A DNA stretch of 26,836 bases from positions 1 to 26,836 of IMG/VR virus record IMGVR_UViG_3300006928_003520. The stretch is one strand, 5' to 3'. The notes beneath the pieces are model-generated. The model had not been told where the DNA came from. It did no database searches and worked only from the letters and a program-made list of their open reading frames with translations. Made by a program: the position numbers and the translations under genes. Every line of letters starts with the position of its first letter. Within the stretch, counting starts at the first letter, position 1. This document shows, piece by piece, positions 7,008-26,836 of this stretch. Source of the stretch: a virus.

Positions 7008-7954
7008 TGGATAAAAATATACTATTTGTCGAGAAATATCGACCACAAACTATACAGGATTGTATACTTCCTGATCACATGAAAAGTGTGTTCAGTAAGT
7101 TTGTTCAACAGGGAGTCATGCCAAACCTATTGCTGACTGGTTCAGCAGGTGTTGGTAAGACCACTGTGGCAAAAGCATTATGTAATGAACTTGGATATGA
7201 CGTCATGTTCATCAACTGCTCAGAAGAAAGGGGTATTGATACTCTGAGAACCAAGATGATGGGTTTTTGTTCAACTGTCTCAATGACAGATGATCGCAAG
7301 TGCCTAATCCTTGATGAAGCAGATTATCTTACACCTGATGCACAGGCAGCACTTCGAGCATTTATTGAGCAGTTCGCTGCTACTTGTTCATTTATAATGA
7401 CCTGTAACTTCAAAAATCGTCTGATCCCACCTTTGCATAGTCGGACAACTGTTATTGACTTCAAGATAGGCAAAAAAGAGTTGCCTACACTCGCAGCAGG
7501 CATGATGAATCGCATCATTGGAATCTGTGAGCAAGAGAGCATTACAGTTGAAGATAAGAAGATTATTGCTGAGGTTGTCACAAAATACTTTCCTGACTTT
7601 CGCAGGACTCTAAATGAAATACAGAGGTATTCAATCGGTGGTACGATTGATACAGGTATACTGGCTCAGATACAAGAACTCAATACAAATGATCTGATCC
7701 CTGCTCTCAAGGAAAGAAACTTCAAGATCGTCCGCAAGTGGGTTGCAGACAACTCAGATGTTGAGATGAGTTCACTCTACAAAAAATTATACGACGAATT
7801 ATATAAAACACTTGATCAAACAAATCAATCGATTCCTCAGATGGTCTTGCTGATGGCAAGGTATCAGTACCAGTCTGCTTTCGTCGCAGATCAGGAGTTG
7901 AACCTCACTGCTTGTTTGGTTGAGATCATGGGCGATTGCTCATTCAAGGATTGA
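7007..7954 (+). CDS. 44: Clamp loader large subunit, AAA+ ATPase gp44
   Basis: The 315-residue protein is close to T4 gp44 in length (319). It has Walker A GSAGVGKTT (45-53), Walker B CLILDEAD with Asp103-Glu104, a sensor-1 segment MTCNFKNRLI and an arginine finger in LHSRTTVIDF. Four copies with one gp62 load gp45 at primer-template junctions. The N-terminal FVEKYRPQTIQDCILP is the usual clamp-loader signature. It starts on the last base of the gp45 stop. Confidence 0.95.
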   Translation: MDKNILFVEKYRPQTIQDCILPDHMKSVFSKFVQQGVMPNLLLTGSAGVGKTTVAKALCNELGYDVMFINCSEERGIDTLRTKMMGFCSTVSMTDDRKCLILDEADYLTPDAQAALRAFIEQFAATCSFIMTCNFKNRLIPPLHSRTTVIDFKIGKKELPTLAAGMMNRIIGICEQESITVEDKKIIAEVVTKYFPDFRRTLNEIQRYSIGGTIDTGILAQIQELNTNDLIPALKERNFKIVRKWVADNSDVEMSSLYKKLYDELYKTLDQTNQSIPQMVLLMARYQYQSAFVADQELNLTACLVEIMGDCSFKD

Positions 7955-7955
7955 A

Positions 7956-8246
7956 ATGACAGAATATTATGAACACCCTCAATACAGTTTTGAGTGTACT
8001 GATGACGTTGGAAACAGAATAGTCGTTGAGTTTACTGCTGAGACATTGTCTGAGATTACTGCTAAGTTTGTTGACTTTCTTAAGGGAGTTGGCTTCTCTT
8101 ATGTAACAGGTATCAGTGTACTATCAAAAGGTTCAGAAGAAAATCCATCAAACTGGAATTATCACTTTGATAGTTGGGGCGAATATCAGCATCCGCCCAT
8201 AGATGAAATGATCAACAAAATCGCAGAAAAGGTAGCAAATGAGTAA
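7956..8246 (+). CDS. Small protein between gp44 and gp62, unknown
   Basis: A 96-residue acidic protein (MTEYYEHPQYSFECTDDVG...) begins at ATG 7956, one base after the gp44 stop, with AAGGA at 7946-7950. An upstream ATG at 7920 in the same frame lies inside gp44 and lacks a ribosome-binding site. The sequence is rich in aromatic residues (GFSYVTG, NWNYHFDSWGEY) and has no catalytic motif I recognise. It overlaps gp62 by 8 bases, so it is probably made together with the clamp loader. Confidence 0.7.
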   Translation: MTEYYEHPQYSFECTDDVGNRIVVEFTAETLSEITAKFVDFLKGVGFSYVTGISVLSKGSEENPSNWNYHFDSWGEYQHPPIDEMINKIAEKVANE

Positions 8247-8643
8247 ACCTTCTCCATTTTCCATTGTTGGCAATCTTAACAGCAAAGAAAAAGGTCATCT
8301 TATGGATGGTGAAGAAGGTGAATTATATGAGTCCTCCTACTCTGGTTTTATTATTAACCGAGGATTATCGATGACTCAAGAGACAGTTGTCCATGCTAAT
8401 ATAATGAACTGCTACCCTGACCTCCCATCAAGATGGCAATATGATTTTTTGTTTTATGGTATACGTGCTAAGAAAAGATGGGGCAAGTGGGCAAAACGTA
8501 ATACTTCAAAGTATCAAGAATCAGTAAAAAAGTTTTTTAGTTATTCTGATCAAAAAGCAAAAGAAGCAATCAAGGTTTTATCCAAAGAACAACTTGACGA
8601 GATATTCCAATGGTTTACGACTGCGGAAGGTGGAAAATCCTAA
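8239..8643 (+). CDS. 62: Clamp loader small subunit, gp62
   Basis: The 134-residue product is shorter than T4 gp62 (187), but its centre, YDFLFYGIRAKKRWGKWAK, lines up with the T4 segment FNYLMAAVPRGKRYGKWAK. Position directly behind gp44 and ahead of RegA is the conserved T4-like order. GAAAAGG (8226-8232) is six bases before the ATG. The missing C-terminal third suggests a reduced loader collar, as in other marine T4-like phages. Confidence 0.85.
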   Translation: MSKPSPFSIVGNLNSKEKGHLMDGEEGELYESSYSGFIINRGLSMTQETVVHANIMNCYPDLPSRWQYDFLFYGIRAKKRWGKWAKRNTSKYQESVKKFFSYSDQKAKEAIKVLSKEQLDEIFQWFTTAEGGKS

Positions 8644-8646
8644 ATA
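8640..8646 (+). promoter_or_regulatory. CTAAATA element, candidate late promoter upstream of regA
   Basis: CTAAATA overlaps the gp62 stop codon and lies 40 bases before the regA ATG. It resembles the late-promoter -10 element of marine T4-like phages. Evidence is only the heptamer and its position, and a read-through early transcript could serve regA equally well. Confidence 0.35.
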
Positions 8647-8685
8647 TGTTAGTGATTATCTCTATGTTTTATAGGGATTATAAGT

Positions 8686-9087
8686 ATGGATATTATCCAA
8701 TCGTTCGTCGAGATCACCCTTAAGCAACCTGATGATTTTTTGAAGATAAGAGAGACATTGAGTCGTATTGGCATTGCTTCAAAACGTGAGAAGAAATTAT
8801 ACCAATCATGTCACATTTTGCATAAACAGGGTAAGTATTATCTCGTTCATTTTAAAGAGTTATTTAAGTTGGATGGAAAACCATCAGACTTCAACCAATC
8901 TGAGACAGACATCGCAAGACGCAATAGCATAGCGAACTTGCTTTCGGAATGGGGTTTATGTAATCTGGTTGAACCAGCAAAAACCGCAAGTCCAACCTGC
9001 TCAGTAAATACATTGAAAATCCTCTCATACAAAGAAAAAGGTGAGTGGATACTTGAGACAAAATATAATGTAGGTAACAGTGAGTAA
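8686..9087 (+). CDS. regA: RegA translational repressor of early genes
   Basis: The 133-residue protein contains VEITLKQPDDFLKIRETLSR and YQSCHILHKQGKYYLVHFKE, nearly superimposable on T4 RegA (IEITLKKPEDFLKVKETLTR, YQSCHILQKKGLYYIVHFKE), and ends KYNVGNSE like the T4 KYTIGN. RegA binds mRNA near start codons and represses its own synthesis and that of replication genes such as gp45 and gp44. The N-terminus is six residues longer than in T4. GGGA lies 8 bases before the ATG. The 3' end overlaps the dUTPase start by 8 bases. Confidence 0.95.
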   Translation: MDIIQSFVEITLKQPDDFLKIRETLSRIGIASKREKKLYQSCHILHKQGKYYLVHFKELFKLDGKPSDFNQSETDIARRNSIANLLSEWGLCNLVEPAKTASPTCSVNTLKILSYKEKGEWILETKYNVGNSE

Positions 9088-9580
9088 AAAATTAAAAATA
9101 TATAGAACAACAGACAAGGCAGTCATACCCAAATATGCGACAGAACAGTCGTCATGTTTTGACCTTCATGCCTGTTGGAATGGTCCAGTGAAAGTTTGGA
9201 ATGCCTATTCAAATAGTGACACTGAGAGAGAACCTCAAGATGTCTTGATTTTGAATCCAGGCGATAGAGCATTAGTACCAACAGGTCTAATATTTGATAT
9301 TCCTAAAGGTCACTCAGTGCGCACGCATCCACGTTCAGGGATGGCGTTAAAAAATGGGATGACATTAATCAACTGTACTGGAGTCATTGATAGTGACTAT
9401 GTACAAGAGACCTTTGTCCCAATCATTAATCTTACAGAGGCACAGTCATCGATCAAGTTTGGCGATAGAATCGCTCAAGCAGAGATGGTAAAAGACCTGA
9501 AAGTATCATTTGAAGAAGTTGAAAATGCTCCTGGCGATAAAACTGATCGCACTGGTGGTCTTGGTTCAACTGGGGTGTAG
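9080..9580 (+). CDS. dut: dUTPase (deoxyuridine 5'-triphosphate nucleotidohydrolase)
   Basis: All five trimeric dUTPase motifs are present: SCFDLHA (I), HPRSGMALKNG (II), GVIDSDYVQE (III), GDRIAQAEM (IV) and DRTGGLGSTG (V). The enzyme turns dUTP into dUMP and pyrophosphate, keeping uracil out of DNA and supplying dUMP. An insertion of about 25 residues (NGPVKVWNAYSN...) lies between motifs I and II. Translation starts at GTG 9080 with TAGG at 9071-9074, overlapping regA by 8 bases. It precedes the putative DNA-modification cassette, where dUMP could also be the precursor of an altered thymine; that link is an inference. Confidence 0.95.
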   Translation: MSKKLKIYRTTDKAVIPKYATEQSSCFDLHACWNGPVKVWNAYSNSDTEREPQDVLILNPGDRALVPTGLIFDIPKGHSVRTHPRSGMALKNGMTLINCTGVIDSDYVQETFVPIINLTEAQSSIKFGDRIAQAEMVKDLKVSFEEVENAPGDKTDRTGGLGSTGV

Positions 9581-9599
9581 TAACCGATCAAGAAGTCCC

Positions 9600-9686
9600 A
9601 TGATCAAATGCAAATCTTGTACTGGAGGTGCTGGGTACTATGTTGACAGCACCAAACAGTCTTGCAGTTGTGGATTCTTTAAATAA
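9600..9686 (+). CDS. 28-residue cysteine-rich mini protein (zinc-knuckle-like)
   Basis: ATG 9600 opens a 28-codon frame encoding CKSCTGGAG, a YYVD spacer and CSCG, i.e. two cysteine pairs, which could bind one zinc ion. The first half resembles the CxxCxGxG knuckle of DnaJ-type fingers. The ribosome-binding site is weak (AAGAAG at 9590-9595). It fits exactly between dUTPase and the next gene, which supports it being real; function is unknown. Confidence 0.5.
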   Translation: MIKCKSCTGGAGYYVDSTKQSCSCGFFK

Positions 9687-9692
9687 AATAAC

Positions 9693-10775
9693 ATGATAGA
9701 GAAAATGAGAACTGACCTTGACTACCGTGACCCAAAACACAGGTGGGAAGGTTTTGACATGTTCTATCGATACATGCTTGAGACTCATGAATGGTCGCCT
9801 GATATCGTACTTGAGAGATGGTTACTCGATGACATGAATGCAGACTTTGAGAAGAGATGCACAATGGCATTTTTTCATGGTGCCTGCCACGCAGGTCCAG
9901 TTGAGTCTGCTTTTGCAGTAACATTCCCCACAGTTACTGCTGATATCATTCCTGAGATGACTGAGTGGTATCTAAAATACAAGAAAAAACTTATCTTTAG
10001 TCCTGACTGTAAATATCGCAAAATAGTATTTGAGAAGTTTCTCAAGTCAGTTGGTGACTCTCTTACCACCACCCTTGGTGATTACATCAAAAAATCCTTC
10101 ACAGTTGGTACTGACATCGAAAACTATAATGACCTTAAAAACAGGTGCATGAATGATTGGTTTCACTGGGGTCGGATGGGTCACTGGTCTTTTGTTGAGG
10201 CGATGGTTGGAATGACTGATGCACCACTTGAAGCACCTGACATGGAGTTTGCGACAGGCAAGTCTCACAGATCAGGTTGGGCATTTGCCATTGGCAGAGA
10301 TGATTTAGTTGACACTGATGATATTAGTAAAGATGATATGGAGATGCTTGAGAGGACAGCAAAGGAATATGTTGAGAGTGTTGACCATCCCAATGCTAAC
10401 TTTTTGAACTTTGAGACCTGTTGTTGTAACTACAAACGTCAACACAAAGGTACAAGGTATGCTGGTTGTTATACTGATGAGCAAGAGTTAGAAACAGAAG
10501 AGGCAAGACACCTGTTGCCTGAGTTTGAATGGCTTTGGGATAAATATATGAAAGCACGACCTCAGGTTTTACCTCACGCAATGCTTGCTGAGATGAATCC
10601 TGAACAATGGGAAACACCATCAGCATATGTGGCAAGTATGAACAAGGCATTATCCAACTATGGTAGGATACCTCGTGCTGAAGCATGGCACAACAAAACA
10701 CCTCAGTTTTGGACTGAGGTTGAAAATCAACCCTTTGCCCGTACTAGTGCGGCAGTGACGGATCTTTTATTTTGA
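9693..10775 (+). CDS. Alpha-glutamyl/putrescinyl thymine pyrophosphorylase clade 3-like protein (predicted DNA-base hypermodification)
   Basis: The 360-residue protein matches the pattern I know for this family: an N-terminal LDYRDPKHRWEGFDMFYRY, a WLLDDMNADFEKRCTMAFFHG segment, KYRKIVFEKF, then MGHWSFVEAM, the SHRSGWAFAIGRDDL motif (about 191-205) and FLNFETCCCNYKR followed by TRYAGCYTDEQ (about 237-262). The family is DNA-glycosylase-like and was predicted to replace a pyrophosphorylated 5-hydroxymethyl pyrimidine in DNA with an amine or amino acid. It is followed after one base by a DNA methyltransferase and then a P-loop kinase, the partner expected for the phosphorylation step. The family call rests on remembered motifs, and no biochemical activity can be proved from the sequence. 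Confidence 0.65.
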   Translation: MIEKMRTDLDYRDPKHRWEGFDMFYRYMLETHEWSPDIVLERWLLDDMNADFEKRCTMAFFHGACHAGPVESAFAVTFPTVTADIIPEMTEWYLKYKKKLIFSPDCKYRKIVFEKFLKSVGDSLTTTLGDYIKKSFTVGTDIENYNDLKNRCMNDWFHWGRMGHWSFVEAMVGMTDAPLEAPDMEFATGKSHRSGWAFAIGRDDLVDTDDISKDDMEMLERTAKEYVESVDHPNANFLNFETCCCNYKRQHKGTRYAGCYTDEQELETEEARHLLPEFEWLWDKYMKARPQVLPHAMLAEMNPEQWETPSAYVASMNKALSNYGRIPRAEAWHNKTPQFWTEVENQPFARTSAAVTDLLF

Positions 10776-21223: not shown

Positions 21224-21835
21224 ATGCTTGACCCTAAAAGGATGCACCGCATCTTTGGTACCATCGATGCTGCCCACAAAACTTGGGACCATTTTGTAAA
21301 TCATCACGCCACCTCATGGGATACTATTGAGATCCAAATGTCCGAAGATCTCACTGAGGTGCTTGGAGTCCAAACCAAGTTTTTAGTTAAGATAGCCAAA
21401 CGACTTAACGCCAATGAGTGTTATTTGGATGGCTCCACGTATGTACCAGATACCTACCGATCTGATGCTCGTATTGACATCACCTTTTATTGTTCTGAGA
21501 TGGTGTATGAGAGGAAGGTTGGGATCACCCTACCAGTATTAACTGAACTAGCTCATGATTTTACTAAGGTCATTCTGCATGAATATACCCATGCCAATCA
21601 GAATGACTGTGATCATGACCCTGGGGATCAAATTTATGATTTGGTCGATCCACTGGAGGTTGATGCTTACTCATCTGAGCTAGCATATGACTACATTCGG
21701 TACAACCATGACCTCACCAAGTCTGATGTGTTTGATAGGTTTCATAAGTCTACATCAAGTGAAGTCAAGTCCGAACTATACCATCTGACCGCACTTAAAG
21801 CAGAATTTCTTGAGAAATTGGTAACACCTAAATAG
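21224..21835 (+). CDS. Zincin-like putative metalloprotease (HEYTH)
   Basis: The 203-residue protein has LAHDFTKVILHEYTHANQ with HEYTH at 119-123, and about 20 residues later DPLEVDAYSSELAYDYI, where Glu145 can serve as the third zinc ligand of a gluzincin-type site. The first 80 residues lack known motifs. The stop overlaps a CTAAATA element. Possible roles include processing of virion or host proteins; there is no signal peptide. It is unrelated by motif context to the zincin in the CobT-like protein. Confidence 0.6.
   Translation: MLDPKRMHRIFGTIDAAHKTWDHFVNHHATSWDTIEIQMSEDLTEVLGVQTKFLVKIAKRLNANECYLDGSTYVPDTYRSDARIDITFYCSEMVYERKVGITLPVLTELAHDFTKVILHEYTHANQNDCDHDPGDQIYDLVDPLEVDAYSSELAYDYIRYNHDLTKSDVFDRFHKSTSSEVKSELYHLTALKAEFLEKLVTPK
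21828..21834 (+). promoter_or_regulatory. CTAAATA element, candidate late promoter of the 3' cluster
   Basis: CTAAATA overlaps the stop codon of the zincin-like gene and ends 29 bases before the next start, leaving room for a start site and the AGGAG at 21854-21858. It is the best-placed of the three such elements and would head the cluster of putative capsid-targeted proteins. Confidence 0.45.
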
Positions 21836-21863: not shown

Positions 21864-23123
21864 TTGTTATCTTTTACATCTTTTAAGGCACCTGAAGGAG
21901 TTAACTTTATCGTTGAAGGTAAAGAGGGAAAGAACCTCCACCTTGAACATTTAGAAGATGAAGTGTTGAATGGTGGTGTTGAAGGTGTAGCAATGGCATT
22001 CAAGTTTTTGGATGCCTTGAATGAGATGATGGATGGTTCAGCGACCTCCAGTGTTAAGATAACAACCAAGTGGGATGGTGCTCCGGCGATATTCTGCGGG
22101 GAAGACCCAACAGATGGTAAGTTCTTTGTTGGCACTAAATCTGTCTTTGCAACAAACCCTAAGCTATGCAAGACAGACGCAGACGTGGATGAGTTCTACT
22201 CTGAATCAGGGTTGAACCCCAAGTTGAAAATCGCCCTCAAGGAATTATCAACAATAGGTATTCCAAAGGGTCATGTCTTCCAAGGTGATATGATGTTCAC
22301 CTCAGAAGACCTCTCGGATCAGACGATTGATGGTACAGATTATGTTACCTTCCAACCCAATACAATCGTCTATGCCATTCCCAAAGGTACTCCCCTCGCT
22401 CGTGAAATTAAAGGTTGTAAAATAGGTGTAGTCTTCCATACTGATTATTCAGGTAAGGGAGAATTATCTGAGTACAGAGCATCATTCAACCCTGCAGTCA
22501 ATAAGTTAAAAAGACCAAAAGGTGTTTGGATACAAGATGCTGAGTATTCTGATGCAACTGGTACAGCAATGTTTACCAAGTCTGAAAGCACAAAGTTTTC
22601 AAAACAGATTACTGCTGCTAGGAAGATAGCAAATAGAGTAGACAAGTCCATTATTGAAAGATTCTCCAGTGATGTCAAACTTAGGGTAGACATCAAGGCA
22701 TTTATGAATTCTAAAATAAGACAGGGGCAAAAAATTGCCAATACCTCTAAAATGGCATTGGAGTTGCTTGAATACCTTGAGGACAAGTATATGAAACAGA
22801 TTAGTAAACTCAAGACTCAAAAGACCATTGATGCTAAGACTTCTGCATTGAAGGAGTTTATTGCAGGTTTGATGTCTTCAAAGGGCAAGATCAAAATAGT
22901 ATTCGACTTGATGAGCGCTATACAAGAGGCCAAAGACATCATTGTCAAGAAACTTGAGAAGGTAAAACAGATGACGGATACTTTCGTCAAAACTGAGACT
23001 GGGTTCAAAGTTACAGGACCAGAAGGTTTTGTTGCCGTGGATAAGATGAAAGGCAATGCTGTCAAAATCGTGGATCGCTTGGAGTTTTCTATGGCGAACT
23101 TTAACGCAATAAAAAGTTGGTAG
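21864..23123 (+). CDS. KxDG-motif protein, possible nucleotidyltransferase/ligase-like (DUF6267-type)
   Basis: The 419-residue product starts at TTG 21864 with AGGAG five bases upstream. It contains ITTKWDGAPAIF with KWDG at 69-72, the shape of the ligase/capping-enzyme motif I (KxDG), then GKFFVGTKS, VFQGDMMF (139-146, like the E/DG motif III), TIVYAIPKG and GCKIGVVFHTDYSG. The C-terminal half is helical and lysine-rich. I associate it with an uncharacterised family common in marine T4-like phages. The N-terminus MLSFTSF and FIVEGKEG includes IVE/G, a good prohead-protease site. Enzymatic activity is inferred only. Confidence 0.6.
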   Translation: MLSFTSFKAPEGVNFIVEGKEGKNLHLEHLEDEVLNGGVEGVAMAFKFLDALNEMMDGSATSSVKITTKWDGAPAIFCGEDPTDGKFFVGTKSVFATNPKLCKTDADVDEFYSESGLNPKLKIALKELSTIGIPKGHVFQGDMMFTSEDLSDQTIDGTDYVTFQPNTIVYAIPKGTPLAREIKGCKIGVVFHTDYSGKGELSEYRASFNPAVNKLKRPKGVWIQDAEYSDATGTAMFTKSESTKFSKQITAARKIANRVDKSIIERFSSDVKLRVDIKAFMNSKIRQGQKIANTSKMALELLEYLEDKYMKQISKLKTQKTIDAKTSALKEFIAGLMSSKGKIKIVFDLMSAIQEAKDIIVKKLEKVKQMTDTFVKTETGFKVTGPEGFVAVDKMKGNAVKIVDRLEFSMANFNAIKSW

Positions 23124-23160
23124 GATGAAAACATTAAAAACATTTTTAACAGAAGCACCT
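23103..23160 (+). repeat. 58-base direct repeat, copy 1
   Basis: It spans the last codons of the KxDG gene and the start of the first paralogue. It matches 23929-23986 at 54 of 58 positions, with a period of 826 bases. Confidence 0.95.
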
Positions 23161-23922
23161 GAGAAAACACTTAAGATAGAACCTTTGTCTGCTATACGTT
23201 TATTGATAGACTATTATGTTCATGTTTACTCTCCTAATAAAATTTCTAATGAAATGGGTGACCTCGAGAAAATATATAAGGAAAATTTCAAGAAGGTAAT
23301 TTATGATGAATGGTATGAAGATTATGACGAAGAGGAAATGAAGGAATATTTAGATGATTCAGGACTAGATCCTGAAAAAGATTGGGAAGATATATTTATG
23401 GATCTCGATGGAGAAAATAGTGACGCTATAGACAATGGTACAATAGAGGACTTTGGTCTTTTGCCAATAGATGATACTTATCATCCTGTAGTTCAATGCA
23501 TTGGGAAGGCATGGCCAATGGCGCCAAGAAACTTTTCCACTAATGATCAGATAGAGTACCAAATTGAATCCGGCAAGTTCGGTGATTATGAAAATGGTGA
23601 TGGAATGCTTATTTGTTTTAATTCTTACAAAAATGGCCCAGGGCAAATGAAATCTGCAGCCAAAGAAGCAAGGTTAAAAGTAGAAAAAGATAAGGCATGG
23701 AAAATGGTTCCATTAAAGGCAATCATAGAAGGTGTTGAAACACTTTGGTTAAAAGAAGAAAGTTTGACACCATCAGCAGGGTTAGGTAAACTTTTGACTG
23801 ATCCGAAATACGGTGTTAGTATGGATAAAAAAGAACTCAATACGTTAAATACTAAAGGATTAGATAAGTATGATATTGAGTGGGCAAAAAATTTCAGAAA
23901 AGAATATAAGAGGTTTTTATGA
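23125..23922 (+). CDS. Acidic protein with T4-type capsid-targeting N-terminus, paralogue A
   Basis: The 265-residue protein starts MKTLKTFLTEAPEKT. The first 11 residues match the capsid-targeting sequence of T4 internal proteins (MKTYQEFIAEA), with the prohead-protease site LTE/A at the same place. A strongly acidic middle (EWYEDYDEEEMKEYLDDSGL) follows. The C-terminal third, with GPGQMKSAAKEA, KLLTDPKYG and MDKKE, is shared with paralogue B. No enzyme motif is seen. It begins one base after the upstream stop and has little ribosome-binding site, so it is probably coupled. Confidence 0.75.
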   Translation: MKTLKTFLTEAPEKTLKIEPLSAIRLLIDYYVHVYSPNKISNEMGDLEKIYKENFKKVIYDEWYEDYDEEEMKEYLDDSGLDPEKDWEDIFMDLDGENSDAIDNGTIEDFGLLPIDDTYHPVVQCIGKAWPMAPRNFSTNDQIEYQIESGKFGDYENGDGMLICFNSYKNGPGQMKSAAKEARLKVEKDKAWKMVPLKAIIEGVETLWLKEESLTPSAGLGKLLTDPKYGVSMDKKELNTLNTKGLDKYDIEWAKNFRKEYKRFL

Positions 23923-23928
23923 GACTTG

Positions 23929-23986
23929 AACGCAATAAAAAGTTGGTAGAATGAAAACACTAAAAACATTTTTGGCAGAAGCACCT
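23929..23986 (+). repeat. 58-base direct repeat, copy 2 (duplication junction)
   Basis: It carries a non-coding relic of the KxDG gene's last codons followed by the start of paralogue B. Immediately upstream, 23919-23931 (ATGAGACTTGAAC) is identical to the first 13 bases of the gene at 24718. Together they form the junction of a tandem duplication and create an 11-codon chimeric frame (MRLERNKKLVE) that ends in an ATGA overlap with paralogue B. Confidence 0.93.
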
Positions 23987-24721
23987 AAGATAGAAGCAAT
24001 GGATTGGAAAGACGCATTCAAGATGTTGATGTTCCATGCTATAGAAACTGAAGGAATGAACTTCGATGATGATGTAGAAAAGGTAAAAGAAAGTTATGTA
24101 GAAATGGTGGAAGATCTCAGATCAGATGGATTGGGAGAGTGGGCTAGCATGGATCCTGACGAACAAGAAGAAGAATGGGATGATGATTTTGATAAGTTTT
24201 TTAATGATGAATATTGGGAGGAAAATTCAGATGACGTTACTATTGGTGCAGCAGCAAAAAAGGTTGAATTGAAAAGTGCAACTGCTGAAGATTTGTTTAC
24301 TGATTCTGAAGAGTCACCAGGTCCTTATGGCGATCCTTCAGGAGGAATGCCTGATAATGGTGAGGGTCAGTTAGAGCACATGATGAGTAATATTTATCGT
24401 GAGGCAGAAGGATGGAAAAATATGATAATGAAATTTGGTGGATTTAAAGGTGCTGGGAAACAAATGGCCATCGATGCAAAGAAAAAAATAAAAACAGATT
24501 GGAAATTGATTAATCCTGATGAACTTATTAAAAATACAACAGATCTGTTGAATGGTTTTACTAAAACCACGCCAACCCATGCTATCTCAAAACTTATGCT
24601 CAAACCAAACTTCGGCATCAATGCTGATAAAAAAGAATGGGCTAACTTCTGTAAAAAACCAGAGACTTACGACAGAAAATGGTGGGTGAGTCTCCAAAAA
24701 GAATTTGGAAAGTACACATGA
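23951..24721 (+). CDS. Acidic protein with T4-type capsid-targeting N-terminus, paralogue B
   Basis: The 256-residue protein starts MKTLKTFLAEAPKIE, nearly identical to paralogue A, with protease site LAE/A. The middle is very acidic (DPDEQEEEWDDDFDKFFNDE). The C-terminal third resembles A in spacing and residues: GAGKQMAIDAKKK, KLMLKPNFG, ADKKE and a final WWVSLQKEFGKY against WAKNFRKEYKRF. The two proteins are otherwise quite diverged. Its ATG overlaps the end of the chimeric 11-codon frame left by the duplication, which may provide translational coupling. Function is unknown. Confidence 0.75.
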   Translation: MKTLKTFLAEAPKIEAMDWKDAFKMLMFHAIETEGMNFDDDVEKVKESYVEMVEDLRSDGLGEWASMDPDEQEEEWDDDFDKFFNDEYWEENSDDVTIGAAAKKVELKSATAEDLFTDSEESPGPYGDPSGGMPDNGEGQLEHMMSNIYREAEGWKNMIMKFGGFKGAGKQMAIDAKKKIKTDWKLINPDELIKNTTDLLNGFTKTTPTHAISKLMLKPNFGINADKKEWANFCKKPETYDRKWWVSLQKEFGKYT

Positions 24722-25671
24722 GACTTGAACATCAAATCAAAAATGTCATCAATCGCATTGATGAGAAGGCCAAAGATACACCTGGCCAGGGTGGGATGAA
24801 AGAGCATCCCATTTCCAAAAAAACTAACGATTATGAAGAAAAGTATTTTCAGCATGCCTCAGTTACGGATGATCGTGAAAAGTTTATCACAGGTAAAAAA
24901 CCTGAACAAAAAGATAATATTGAGGACACAGAGGGTCATTCGAACCCTGCTGAAAAATCAAAAGACAAAGCACCGAAAGAATCGGAAGAAATTATTGATG
25001 AGAGGGTATTGCCCTCAAATCTAGCAATGACTGGTTACATTGACAAAACCACCGTAGGATTTATTCTCAAAGGTCAGATGAAATATGACTGGTGGCCAGC
25101 CATAGGACAGAATGGAGCCAAAGAGGATGATAAGGTAGTTTTTAAGTTTAATAAACCTCAGGGAGATACTATTTCAGGTGTTCCCCAGTCAGGTAAGTAC
25201 AAAGGTAAGATATTTGATTACAACATCGTAAAAGATAACTTCAAGGTTCCTGCTGCGGAACTTCAAAAACATAGACTAAAGGAAGATATGAATATTGATT
25301 TAAAACAAGTCAAGGACCTGACTGAAAAGAAACAAGAGAAGGAAGGTTACAATGTAAAGATGGCTGCTGCTGCCCTAAAGGACAAAAGTCACATGGACAT
25401 GGGTGGTGAAAAGCATCCTGTTAAAATGGATAAAAAGACTGCAAAGAAAATTATGAAGGATGTCAAAGAGGGCAATGTTGAGAATGTATCCTTTGCTGAT
25501 GCAGTTCGCCTTGCACAAGAGACAGCAGTTCAGTCCCATAAAGAGTATTGGGAAGAAGCAGCGAAAAAACGTGATGAAGGTTGGGGTGGTAAAGGTGGAG
25601 TTCCTGGTAAGGGATCGGTTACCACTATCGCAAAAGCGAAAAAAGGTGGAATGACCATCGGTGGCAAGTAA
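24718..25671 (+). CDS. Hypothetical lysine-rich virion-type protein, 317 aa
   Basis: The start MRLEHQIKNVINRIDEKAK at 24718 overlaps the paralogue B stop (ATGA) and is confirmed by the duplication scar, which preserves the same ATG and following bases. Residues 20-100 are polar and probably disordered (KPEQKDNIEDTEGHSNPAEK). A folded part around TVGFILKGQMKYDWWPAIG and VVFKFNKPQGDTISG follows, then a Lys-rich helical region and a Gly/Lys tail (GWGGKGGVPGKGS). No enzyme motif is recognised. It ends one base into the next gene (TAATG). Confidence 0.7.
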   Translation: MRLEHQIKNVINRIDEKAKDTPGQGGMKEHPISKKTNDYEEKYFQHASVTDDREKFITGKKPEQKDNIEDTEGHSNPAEKSKDKAPKESEEIIDERVLPSNLAMTGYIDKTTVGFILKGQMKYDWWPAIGQNGAKEDDKVVFKFNKPQGDTISGVPQSGKYKGKIFDYNIVKDNFKVPAAELQKHRLKEDMNIDLKQVKDLTEKKQEKEGYNVKMAAAALKDKSHMDMGGEKHPVKMDKKTAKKIMKDVKEGNVENVSFADAVRLAQETAVQSHKEYWEEAAKKRDEGWGGKGGVPGKGSVTTIAKAKKGGMTIGGK

Positions 25672-26267
25672 TGAAAACTTGGACGCAGTTCATAAAGGAA
25701 ACAAAAGGTAAAACTGCCGTTGTTACTTTTGGCAGGATGAATCCTCCCACCATTGGCCACCAAAAGTTGGTTGATGAGGTGTTGAGGGTTGCTAAGCAGA
25801 ATGGTGCAACCCCATATGTTTTTGTTTCCCATACTCAGAAGAAACCTAAAGATCCCCTTGACTATAAAACTAAGGTTGCGATTGCTGGTAAGGCATTTGG
25901 TAAGGCGATTCAAAAGGATAAGGTAAACAACCCTTTTGATGCCGTATACAAAATGCGAGATGAAGGGTATGATACTGTTTTCTTTGTGGCAGGTTCAGAT
26001 CGTGTTCCTCAATACAATGCTATGTTTAAAAAGTATTCAGGACACCCTGACCCTGAGAAAGATATTGGAGTTGAACTGCAAGTAGTTTCCGCAGGCGAAA
26101 GAGACCCTGACGCAGATGGTGCTGAAGGGATGTCTGCAAGTAAAATGCGTGCATTGGCAATGGAGAATGATTACACTAACTTCATGCTTGGTGCACCTGA
26201 AAAACTAAGAGAACCTGATGTCAAGAAGATGTTTATAGCAATCAGAAAGGCAATGGGAGCAAAATAA
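25671..26267 (+). CDS. Nucleotidyltransferase of the TxGH/cytidylyltransferase-like superfamily (NMNAT-like) with capsid-targeting-like N-terminus
   Basis: The 198-residue protein has the HIGH-type signature FGRMNPPTIGHQ with TIGH at 27-30, a VFFVAGSDRVPQYN core and GMSASKMR (153-160), the analogue of the SxxxxR phosphate-binding motif. Members transfer nucleotidyl groups, for example to nicotinamide mononucleotide, FMN or pantetheine phosphate. The catalytic domain starts right after residues 1-11, MKTWTQFIKET, which resembles the T4 capsid-targeting sequence with a weaker protease site IKE/T. NAD-related activity delivered with the DNA is an attractive but unproved idea; the exact substrate cannot be read. 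Confidence 0.78.
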   Translation: MKTWTQFIKETKGKTAVVTFGRMNPPTIGHQKLVDEVLRVAKQNGATPYVFVSHTQKKPKDPLDYKTKVAIAGKAFGKAIQKDKVNNPFDAVYKMRDEGYDTVFFVAGSDRVPQYNAMFKKYSGHPDPEKDIGVELQVVSAGERDPDADGAEGMSASKMRALAMENDYTNFMLGAPEKLREPDVKKMFIAIRKAMGAK

Positions 26268-26285
26268 TATAATGAAAGGAGTTGA

Positions 26286-26423
26286 TTGGTACGTCGTGGT
26301 ATTTTTAAGTACGAAAGTAAGAAAGTAAAGAAACGGACGAGCATAGGTAAGTCACCATTTTCCAAACCAAAAAATAAACACAAGAGAAGAAATTGGAAAA
26401 AATACAGAGGACAAGGGAAGTGA
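26286..26423 (+). CDS. 45-residue highly basic protein with TTG start
   Basis: TTG 26286 is preceded by GAAAGGAG (26274-26281) and an in-frame stop right upstream (26283-26285), so TTG is the only usable start. The product, VRRGIFKYESKKVKKRTS then SKPKNKHKRRNWKKYRGQGK, is about 45% Lys/Arg and could bind nucleic acid. Similar small basic proteins occur in marine T4-like phages as far as I recall. It overlaps the next GTG by four bases (GTGA). Confidence 0.65.
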   Translation: MVRRGIFKYESKKVKKRTSIGKSPFSKPKNKHKRRNWKKYRGQGK

Positions 26424-26836
26424 AGCATTTCAAAAAGTTATTTGAGGAGGTCAAGAATCCGACCTTCCTTGTATTGACTATTGCGAAACCTATGGATAGC
26501 AATCCTCAAGCATATTGGGGTAGCATGGAGAATACTCATATAGTATTTGTTGATGAGTGTTACCTTGATACCAAAAAAGTAAGGGCAGGCAAGGTTACCA
26601 TAAAAAACTACAATGGCAACCTTGATGATTTAGATATTAAGATCCAAGAGACCTTTGCGATCCCCTTGGGGTCAGTTCTTTCAGATGAGTCAAGACTTGG
26701 TGTTGCTGAGTCACTTGAGACACTTGGTGTGGCTATGCTAAATGAACTCACCACCATGAAAAATGCGAGGAACAAACTCACTACATCTCGCATTCTTGCT
26801 GATGCTAAAATGCCAACACCAATCACATCTATTGTA
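26420..26836 (+). CDS. ATP-grasp (RimK-like) ligase, 3' truncated by the window
   Basis: GTG 26420 opens a frame that stays open to the window end (139 codons). The segment LGVAMLNELTTMKNARNKLT followed by TSRILADAKMPTPITSIV is the classic entry to an ATP-grasp domain (variable Asn, DK-like RNKL, PTP.T). RimK-type enzymes ligate amino acids such as glutamate to carboxyl groups. The N-terminus MKHFKKLFEEVKN is reminiscent of the capsid-targeting peptides upstream, though its E/V site is poor. The catalytic C-terminal part lies outside the window. Confidence 0.65.
   Translation, partial: MKHFKKLFEEVKNPTFLVLTIAKPMDSNPQAYWGSMENTHIVFVDECYLDTKKVRAGKVTIKNYNGNLDDLDIKIQETFAIPLGSVLSDESRLGVAESLETLGVAMLNELTTMKNARNKLTTSRILADAKMPTPITSIV

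Follow-up and report, generated by a model that had tools for sequence, protein, structure and literature searches.

The question raised by the locus at positions 21,864 to 26,836 of a T4-like marine phage contig is why proteins of different families, encoded side by side, begin with closely similar short sequences. The contig (IMG/VR record IMGVR_UViG_3300006928_003520; 26,836 bases, analysed whole and here called the window) encodes a DUF6267 (KxDG) protein, two acidic proteins named A and B, and a TxGH nucleotidyltransferase, all with N-termini resembling the capsid-targeting peptides of phage T4 (Table 1). It is very probable that the cluster is a cargo locus, the tagged proteins of which would be packaged in the head, cut by a gp21-type protease, and delivered with the DNA into the next host.

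For T4 internal protein IPIII, the first ten residues suffice for packaging, residues 4 and 7 acting in targeting and residues 8 and 10 in cleavage; targeting leaders are 10-19 residues long, and gp21 cleaves after L/I-x-E (PMC9026906). A preliminary description of this DNA had given the N-termini of A and B as MKTLKTFLTEA and MKTLKTFLAEA, had called the two proteins paralogues, and had likened their starts to the T4 peptide. Both N-termini were found at the listed gene starts, paralogy was confirmed (26% identity, E=2e-11; the leaders differ only at residue 9), and residues 4, 7, 8 and 10 fit the T4 rule with a deviation at residue 4. The IVE/G site assigned there to the KxDG protein was recovered as FIVE/G at residues 15-19, read from the TTG start (slashes mark predicted cleavage). 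Two further proteins had been credited with similar starts and weaker sites: the nucleotidyltransferase leader, MKTWTQFIKET, fits the ten-residue rule, whereas that of the ATP-grasp protein was too degenerate. Targeting residues 4/7 are L4/F7 in A and B, W4/F7 in the nucleotidyltransferase, and F4/F7 in DUF6267; the (I/L)xE sites are LTE in A, LAE in B, IKE in the nucleotidyltransferase, and IVE in DUF6267. The DUF6267 leader, MLSFTSFKAPEGVNFIVE followed by G, thus keeps both targeting residues with the processing site displaced. The nucleotidyltransferase site reads E10/T in the window and E/A in the relatives L001, L002 and L072.

The motif ^M.{2,6}F[IL].E was matched by A, B and the nucleotidyltransferase, i.e. 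by three of the 31 window genes. The background was 4/589 (binomial p=0.0012), the rate in three proteome-mapped cyanophages among genes whose products were undetected in virions. The same three proteins also satisfied a stricter ten-residue rule, for which 0.02-0.09 matches are expected per genome.

Conservation of the leaders was assessed in the loci of 80 environmental nucleotidyltransferase homologues from IMG/VR. Nearly all of these homologues carry a leader with a hydrophobic-x-Glu site at its end, directly before the catalytic domain, as in MINSFSQFLVEE, MIGSFKQYLVEE, MSVKSFSQYITEA and MLLRELFEAP; those of L084, L085, L087, L090 and L091 do not. Leaders of the locus and its relatives mostly have F/Y/L at residue 4, F/Y at 7, I/L at 8 and E at 10, and are variable elsewhere. 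Because the sites were located by that same pattern, there is some circularity in the counts at P3 and P1, but none in the conservation of residue 4. The nucleotidyltransferases also have another, shorter class of leader (MLLRELFEAP), which keeps only the LxE/A site. On alignment of DUF6267 sequences, FIVE/G of the window matched up with FITE, YITE or YLIE of relatives, and residues 1-26 of the structure model have a predicted local distance difference test score (pLDDT) below 50, which is consistent with a detachable leader. Among the 1250 open reading frames of the 80 loci, which are in part redundant, 112 carry the leader motif, against an expectation of 10.2 derived from internal positions. 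The motif-bearing frames belong to more than ten unrelated families, among them an HD_4 phosphohydrolase and a 5' nucleotidase-like protein. Retention of the T4 targeting and processing residues on unrelated mature proteins was counted in favor of packaging as cargo.

A looser form of the motif recovered IPII, IPIII, Alt, gp21, gp22 and gp24 in T4. The looser form [FYL][ILVMF]xE was near chance genome-wide in HTVC008M, P-HM2, Syn1 and DLP6, and was therefore unfit for use. Small proteins starting MKTFKEFIKED (T4, NC_000866 18969-19133), MKSFKSFLSES (S-SZBM1, 122314-122631) and MKTFKQFMSES (S-SCSM1, 44215) are possibly further small internal proteins, judged by their starts. An HD_4 (RelA/SpoT-type HD domain) protein with the leader MQRFKTYINEE (L116:7156-7716) is a possible packaged alarmone-hydrolase-like enzyme.

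The nucleotidyltransferase corresponds to cyanophage core cluster T4-GC190, detected in virions of S-SM1 and undetected in those of S-PM2 (PMC3037559). Orthologues were present in purified virions of S-SCSM1 (PMC9602691), S-SZBM1 (PMC9146016) and S-CREM2 (PMC10665884). All four virion-detected orthologues bear a leader (S-SM1, MKKFSAFLNEA; S-SCSM1, MKSFLQFLKEA; S-SZBM1, MRFRQFIIEA; S-CREM2, MKNFSSFLTEA); the S-PM2 domain lacks a leader and is fused to the C-terminal end of DUF6267. In S-CREM2, the motif was found on 4/28 non-structural virion proteins, namely SAM lyase gp6, gp13, kinase gp14 and nucleotidyltransferase gp154, versus 1/167 undetected proteins (p=0.0016). Enrichment in virion proteins was also obtained with three phages pooled (p=0.004); the genome-wide test was not significant in S-SCSM1 alone or S-SZBM1 alone, with one virion match each. 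The kinase of S-CRM01, reported in virions and encoded between the DUF6267 and nucleotidyltransferase genes, was predicted beforehand to bear a leader and starts with MISFDQFLSEK. S-CBWM1 was set aside as a further test; its NMNAT is leaderless, and the phage has been described as not of the T4 type. For the nucleotidyltransferase family, the four virion proteomes with their uniformly leader-bearing orthologues are strong support for packaging in the head through a T4-type targeting peptide. The predicted packaging of DUF6267 is well supported too, by conservation of its leader, and that of A and B by sequence.

Two other virion proteins were recorded in the course of this comparison. The S-CREM2 protein encoded at 7704-10313 (L014), annotated as a Cas9 nuclease, has an FMAE/A site among its first 25 residues; a Pfam search of the product gave no match, which leaves the Cas9 name without support here. 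A member of the phrog_1462 family (L152:3343-4677, i.e. S-SCSM1 gp90; L097:315-1613) occurs in S-SCSM1 virions. The L097 protein has the leader MKSLVSFISEG, and the PADIxV...SLKK pattern of the family hints at a PD-(D/E)XK nuclease.

The absence of a gp21-type protease had been named beforehand as an argument against packaging. None is encoded in the 26.8 kb window, itself a genome fragment, but the protease (PF03420) was found on the contig of the close relative L002 (G002; E=1.3e-36) and in each of six complete genomes searched (Melnitz, HTVC008M, P-HM2, Syn1, DLP6 and T4). Major capsid proteins contain sites like those of the leaders: FLSE/A in Melnitz, FLAE/A in S-SCSM1, ILTE/A in S-SZBM1, LLTE/A in S-CREM2, LLGE/A in DLP6 and FLTE/A in T4. 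These were read from the sequences, the T4 site alone being established.

The nucleotidyltransferase matched phrog_3041 (E=1.5e-52), and its matches to PF01467 and TIGR00125 fell just below the cut-offs. GRxNPPTIGH and MSASKMR are conserved in the family (22 sequences), eight members of which gave weak matches to the nicotinate/nicotinamide nucleotide adenylyltransferase model. A sequence search of the PDB returned spurious matches only. By its motifs and family matches, the protein belongs to the NMNAT/cytidylyltransferase class. In many phages it is adjacent or fused to DUF6267, which suggests a joint role; phrog_455 spans both proteins because fused forms such as S-PM2d138 exist.

The DUF6267 protein is a full-length member of PF19782 (E=1.9e-103; 347 bits, cut-off 27), a family with at least 466 phage records. 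The KxDG, EGxVA and KxVDR elements are invariant or nearly so across relatives, and K69, D71, G72, E387, G388 and K401 are invariant in 23 sequences. When the structure model was compared using VIA-align, the 26 best-ranked entries were RNA ligases or tRNA ligases, the best with Z 8.8 and a root-mean-square deviation of 3.5 over 186 residues. Fold neighbors included Naegleria RNA ligase (Z 8.8), T4 Rnl2 (7.4) and T4 Rnl1 (7.3). Foldseek gave no match of E < 0.001 with the same model, and a PDB sequence search gave spurious matches only. The protein looks like an RNA-ligase-type nucleotidyltransferase, and the modeled fold together with the invariant motifs lends moderate support to ligase activity. 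A defense-database scan was empty save for a marginal AbiEii match to DUF6267.

Proteins A (isoelectric point 4.7, net charge -17) and B (4.6, -20) are both acidic. The leader of A is kept in L001 and L002; its homologues were confined to two IMG/VR contigs, with none among 50,697 phage records and no match in Pfam, PHROG or PADLOC. A homologue of B was found nowhere, and B is absent from L001, L002 and L072. The structure model of A was unusable (pLDDT 38), so that charge is the sole ground for regarding A as a possible DNA mimic. In L072, DUF6267 and the nucleotidyltransferase have 93-96% identity to the window proteins, and A and B are both missing. Comparison of these near-identical phages indicates that cargo is gained and lost; A and B accordingly look like variable accessory cargo, as T4-type internal proteins are. 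Where A and B are missing from L072, protein D is shortened (L072:4832-5080).

From the targeting anatomy of the leaders, the homologies, the protease of relatives and the orthologues in virions we infer the following course for the window's own proteins. A, B, the nucleotidyltransferase and DUF6267 would be made late in infection with their N-terminal capsid-targeting sequences, residues 4 and 7 of which would dock them in the prohead core. The phage's gp21-type protease would then cut after Glu of (I/L)xE, with a specificity shared with the trimming of the major capsid protein. The processed proteins would remain in the head during DNA packaging. By analogy with T4 Alt and internal proteins, they would enter the next host along with the DNA and, if active there, supply adenylyl- or nucleotidyl-transfer and ligase-like functions together with acidic accessory proteins ahead of any phage gene expression. 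The delivery of nucleotidyl-transfer and ligase activities had already been proposed in the preliminary description. That proposal stands in part: packaging is strongly supported for the nucleotidyltransferase family and ligase activity moderately, but the ATP-grasp member does not count.

Several observations weigh against delivery as cargo. According to the authors of the S-CREM2 and S-SCSM1 studies, virion detection may include carry-over (PMC10665884, PMC9602691). The S-SCSM1 virion proteins gp89, gp90 and gp92 of this locus have no clear leader, and DUF6267 of S-SZBM1 was undetected in virions (PMC9146016). None of the proteome-mapped phages encodes a homologue of A or B. Residue 4 of A and B is Leu and not aromatic. 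The cyanophages P-HM2 and Syn1 encode leaderless forms of both the nucleotidyltransferase and DUF6267, the function of which thus cannot depend on packaging in every phage. Together with the S-PM2 homologue, these leaderless proteins would suit an account in which the shared N-termini reflect inheritance or a local sequence preference and the proteins work, unpackaged, in the late-infected cell; within each family, a leader could indeed persist by descent. That account is nevertheless highly improbable, since the same four-position pattern recurs across unrelated families while other positions vary, and since the leader marks virion proteins in S-CREM2 and every virion-detected orthologue of the nucleotidyltransferase.

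Another account makes the leader-bearing proteins prohead-core or structural parts that gp21 processes, that are left in the head and that play no role in the next host. The T4 head core also contains gp21, gp22, gp67 and gp68, several of which are cleaved by gp21, and head morphogenesis is influenced by IPIII (PMC9026906); gp22 and gp24 are also among the T4 motif matches. A purely structural role is considered unlikely here, given the enzyme-like cargo with its conserved catalytic motifs KxDG and GRxNPPTIGH, the presence of such leaders elsewhere on kinases, a SAM lyase, an HD phosphohydrolase and a nucleotidase-like protein, and the lack of A and B in L072, which marks them as dispensable for assembly. 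Should the cluster be a cargo locus, the chances are about even that this holds in a narrower form, with A, B, the nucleotidyltransferase and DUF6267 packaged, and with D and the ATP-grasp/RimB-like protein acting in the cell, e.g. as a protein-modifying pair. The sole candidate site in D is RIDE/RVDE; that in the ATP-grasp protein is LFEE, the Leu of which is Met in L002. On the other hand, leaders of the MLLRELFEAP type are common on nucleotidyltransferase homologues, so that an LFE-type site may be functional, and several S-SCSM1 virion proteins of the locus lack a clear leader.

That NMNAT-like proteins and kinases occur in cyanophage virions, with entry into the host suggested, was already known (PMC10665884, PMC9602691), as was the T4 targeting rule (PMC9026906). 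In the portions available, the reports on S-SM1, S-SCSM1, S-SZBM1 and S-CREM2 note or propose virion carriage and name no targeting signal (PMC3037559, PMC9602691, PMC9146016, PMC10665884). A literature search of open-licence papers found none that joins the T4 rule to the virion NMNAT-like proteins. The link of the targeting peptide to these proteins, and DUF6267 as cargo with a ligase-like fold, appear to be new; new is also the sequence rule, which predicted one further virion protein, the S-CRM01 kinase. The T4 rule would account for the recurrence of NMNAT-like proteins in cyanophage virions, the entry route of which was previously unexplained, and would predict cargo from genomes alone. 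DUF6267 gains a candidate role, and kinases, SAM lyase, HD hydrolase and nucleotidase form a class of possible early effectors in abundant marine phages. A more far-reaching and rather doubtful idea is that marine T4-like phages inject a ready-made, tag-recruited repair and counter-defense kit. DUF6267 would then mend RNA cut by host defense nucleases, the NMNAT-like enzyme would restore NAD+ drained by NAD-degrading defenses, and acidic A/B-type proteins could be DNA mimics; the locus 3' of the helicase gene would serve for the exchange of cargo, new effectors being recruited simply through gain of a ten-residue tag.

The DNA polymerase of the window has 49% identity to cyanophage polymerases, and the DUF6267 protein 45% identity to that of Methylophilales phage Melnitz. 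The cluster lies 3' of the replication genes, downstream of the gp41-type helicase gene. In related genomes the locus is located between the gp41 and gp61 genes; the equivalent stretch of Melnitz, P-HM2, Syn1, S-SCSM1 and S-CRM01 is flanked by the gp41-type helicase gene and the primase gene. The CTAAATA element previously placed at the head of the cluster is present there; its role as a late promoter is suggestive only, because the window contains 7 sites versus 3.3 expected. Protein D has 66% identity to its L001 homologue. The ATP-grasp leader, MKHFKKLFEEV (MKHFKTMFEEV in L002), has Phe instead of Ile/Leu at residue 8 and only an LFE site, placed one residue early, which makes it a weak candidate for a targeting peptide. 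A longer ATP-grasp relative (L001:9933-11264) combines a RimK-like domain (PF08443) and a C-terminal PF05618 protease domain in one chain, i.e. RimK- plus RimB-like parts together. The product of window positions 21224-21835, 5' of DUF6267, contains an HEYTH motif and, after it, a conserved region with a Glu, a pattern suggestive of zincin-type metallopeptidases; it has no leader.

Table 1. Features of the candidate cargo locus, with positions in the window.
Feature	Position	Strand	Remarks
CTAAATA element, possible T4-like late promoter	21828..21834	+	~36 bp 5' of DUF6267 start
DUF6267 (KxDG) protein	21864..23123	+	TTG start; AGGAG ribosome-binding site
Predicted 18-residue capsid-targeting propeptide of DUF6267	21864..21917	+	predicted cleavage after E18
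Protein A, acidic candidate internal protein	23125..23922	+	leader MKTLKTFLTE then A
Predicted 10-residue capsid-targeting propeptide of A	23125..23154	+	residues 4, 7, 8, 10 = L, F, L, E
Protein B, paralogue of A	23951..24721	+	leader MKTLKTFLAE then A
Predicted 10-residue capsid-targeting propeptide of B	23951..23980	+	residues 4, 7, 8, 10 = L, F, L, E
Protein D, basic	24718..25671	+	ATG 24718 overlaps end of B; weak RIDE site
TxGH (NMNAT/cytidylyltransferase-like) nucleotidyltransferase	25671..26267	+	leader MKTWTQFIKE then T
Predicted 10-residue capsid-targeting propeptide of nucleotidyltransferase	25671..25700	+	W4 F7 I8 E10
ATP-grasp (RimK-like) protein	26420..26836	+	GTG start; cut by window end

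Compared with the RNA ligases 1 and 2 of T4 and the Naegleria RNA ligase, the DUF6267 protein shares the KxDG motif I, an EGxV-like motif IV and Lys at a motif V-like position (Z 7.2-8.8); it differs in having no meaningful PDB sequence match and in a long inserted helical region (239-366). For the DUF6267 (PF19782) family, the leader, the cargo status and the RNA-ligase-like fold are newly proposed. The nucleotidyltransferase shares a homologous domain with the cyanophage virion NMNAT/cytidylyltransferase proteins (T4-GC190), mostly the same neighborhood as DUF6267, and the leader present on all four virion-detected members, but is a short form of 198 residues. The T4 capsid-targeting system (IPI, IPII, IPIII and Alt with gp21) is matched in the ten-residue leader, in residues 4, 7, 8 and 10, in the (I/L)xE site, in the gp21-type protease (in the window's relatives), and in accessory variable cargo. 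The candidate cargo of the window is unrelated to that of T4, and the acidic A and B contrast with the basic internal proteins of T4; the window genes are clustered 3' of the helicase gene, and the DUF6267 processing site has moved to residue 18.

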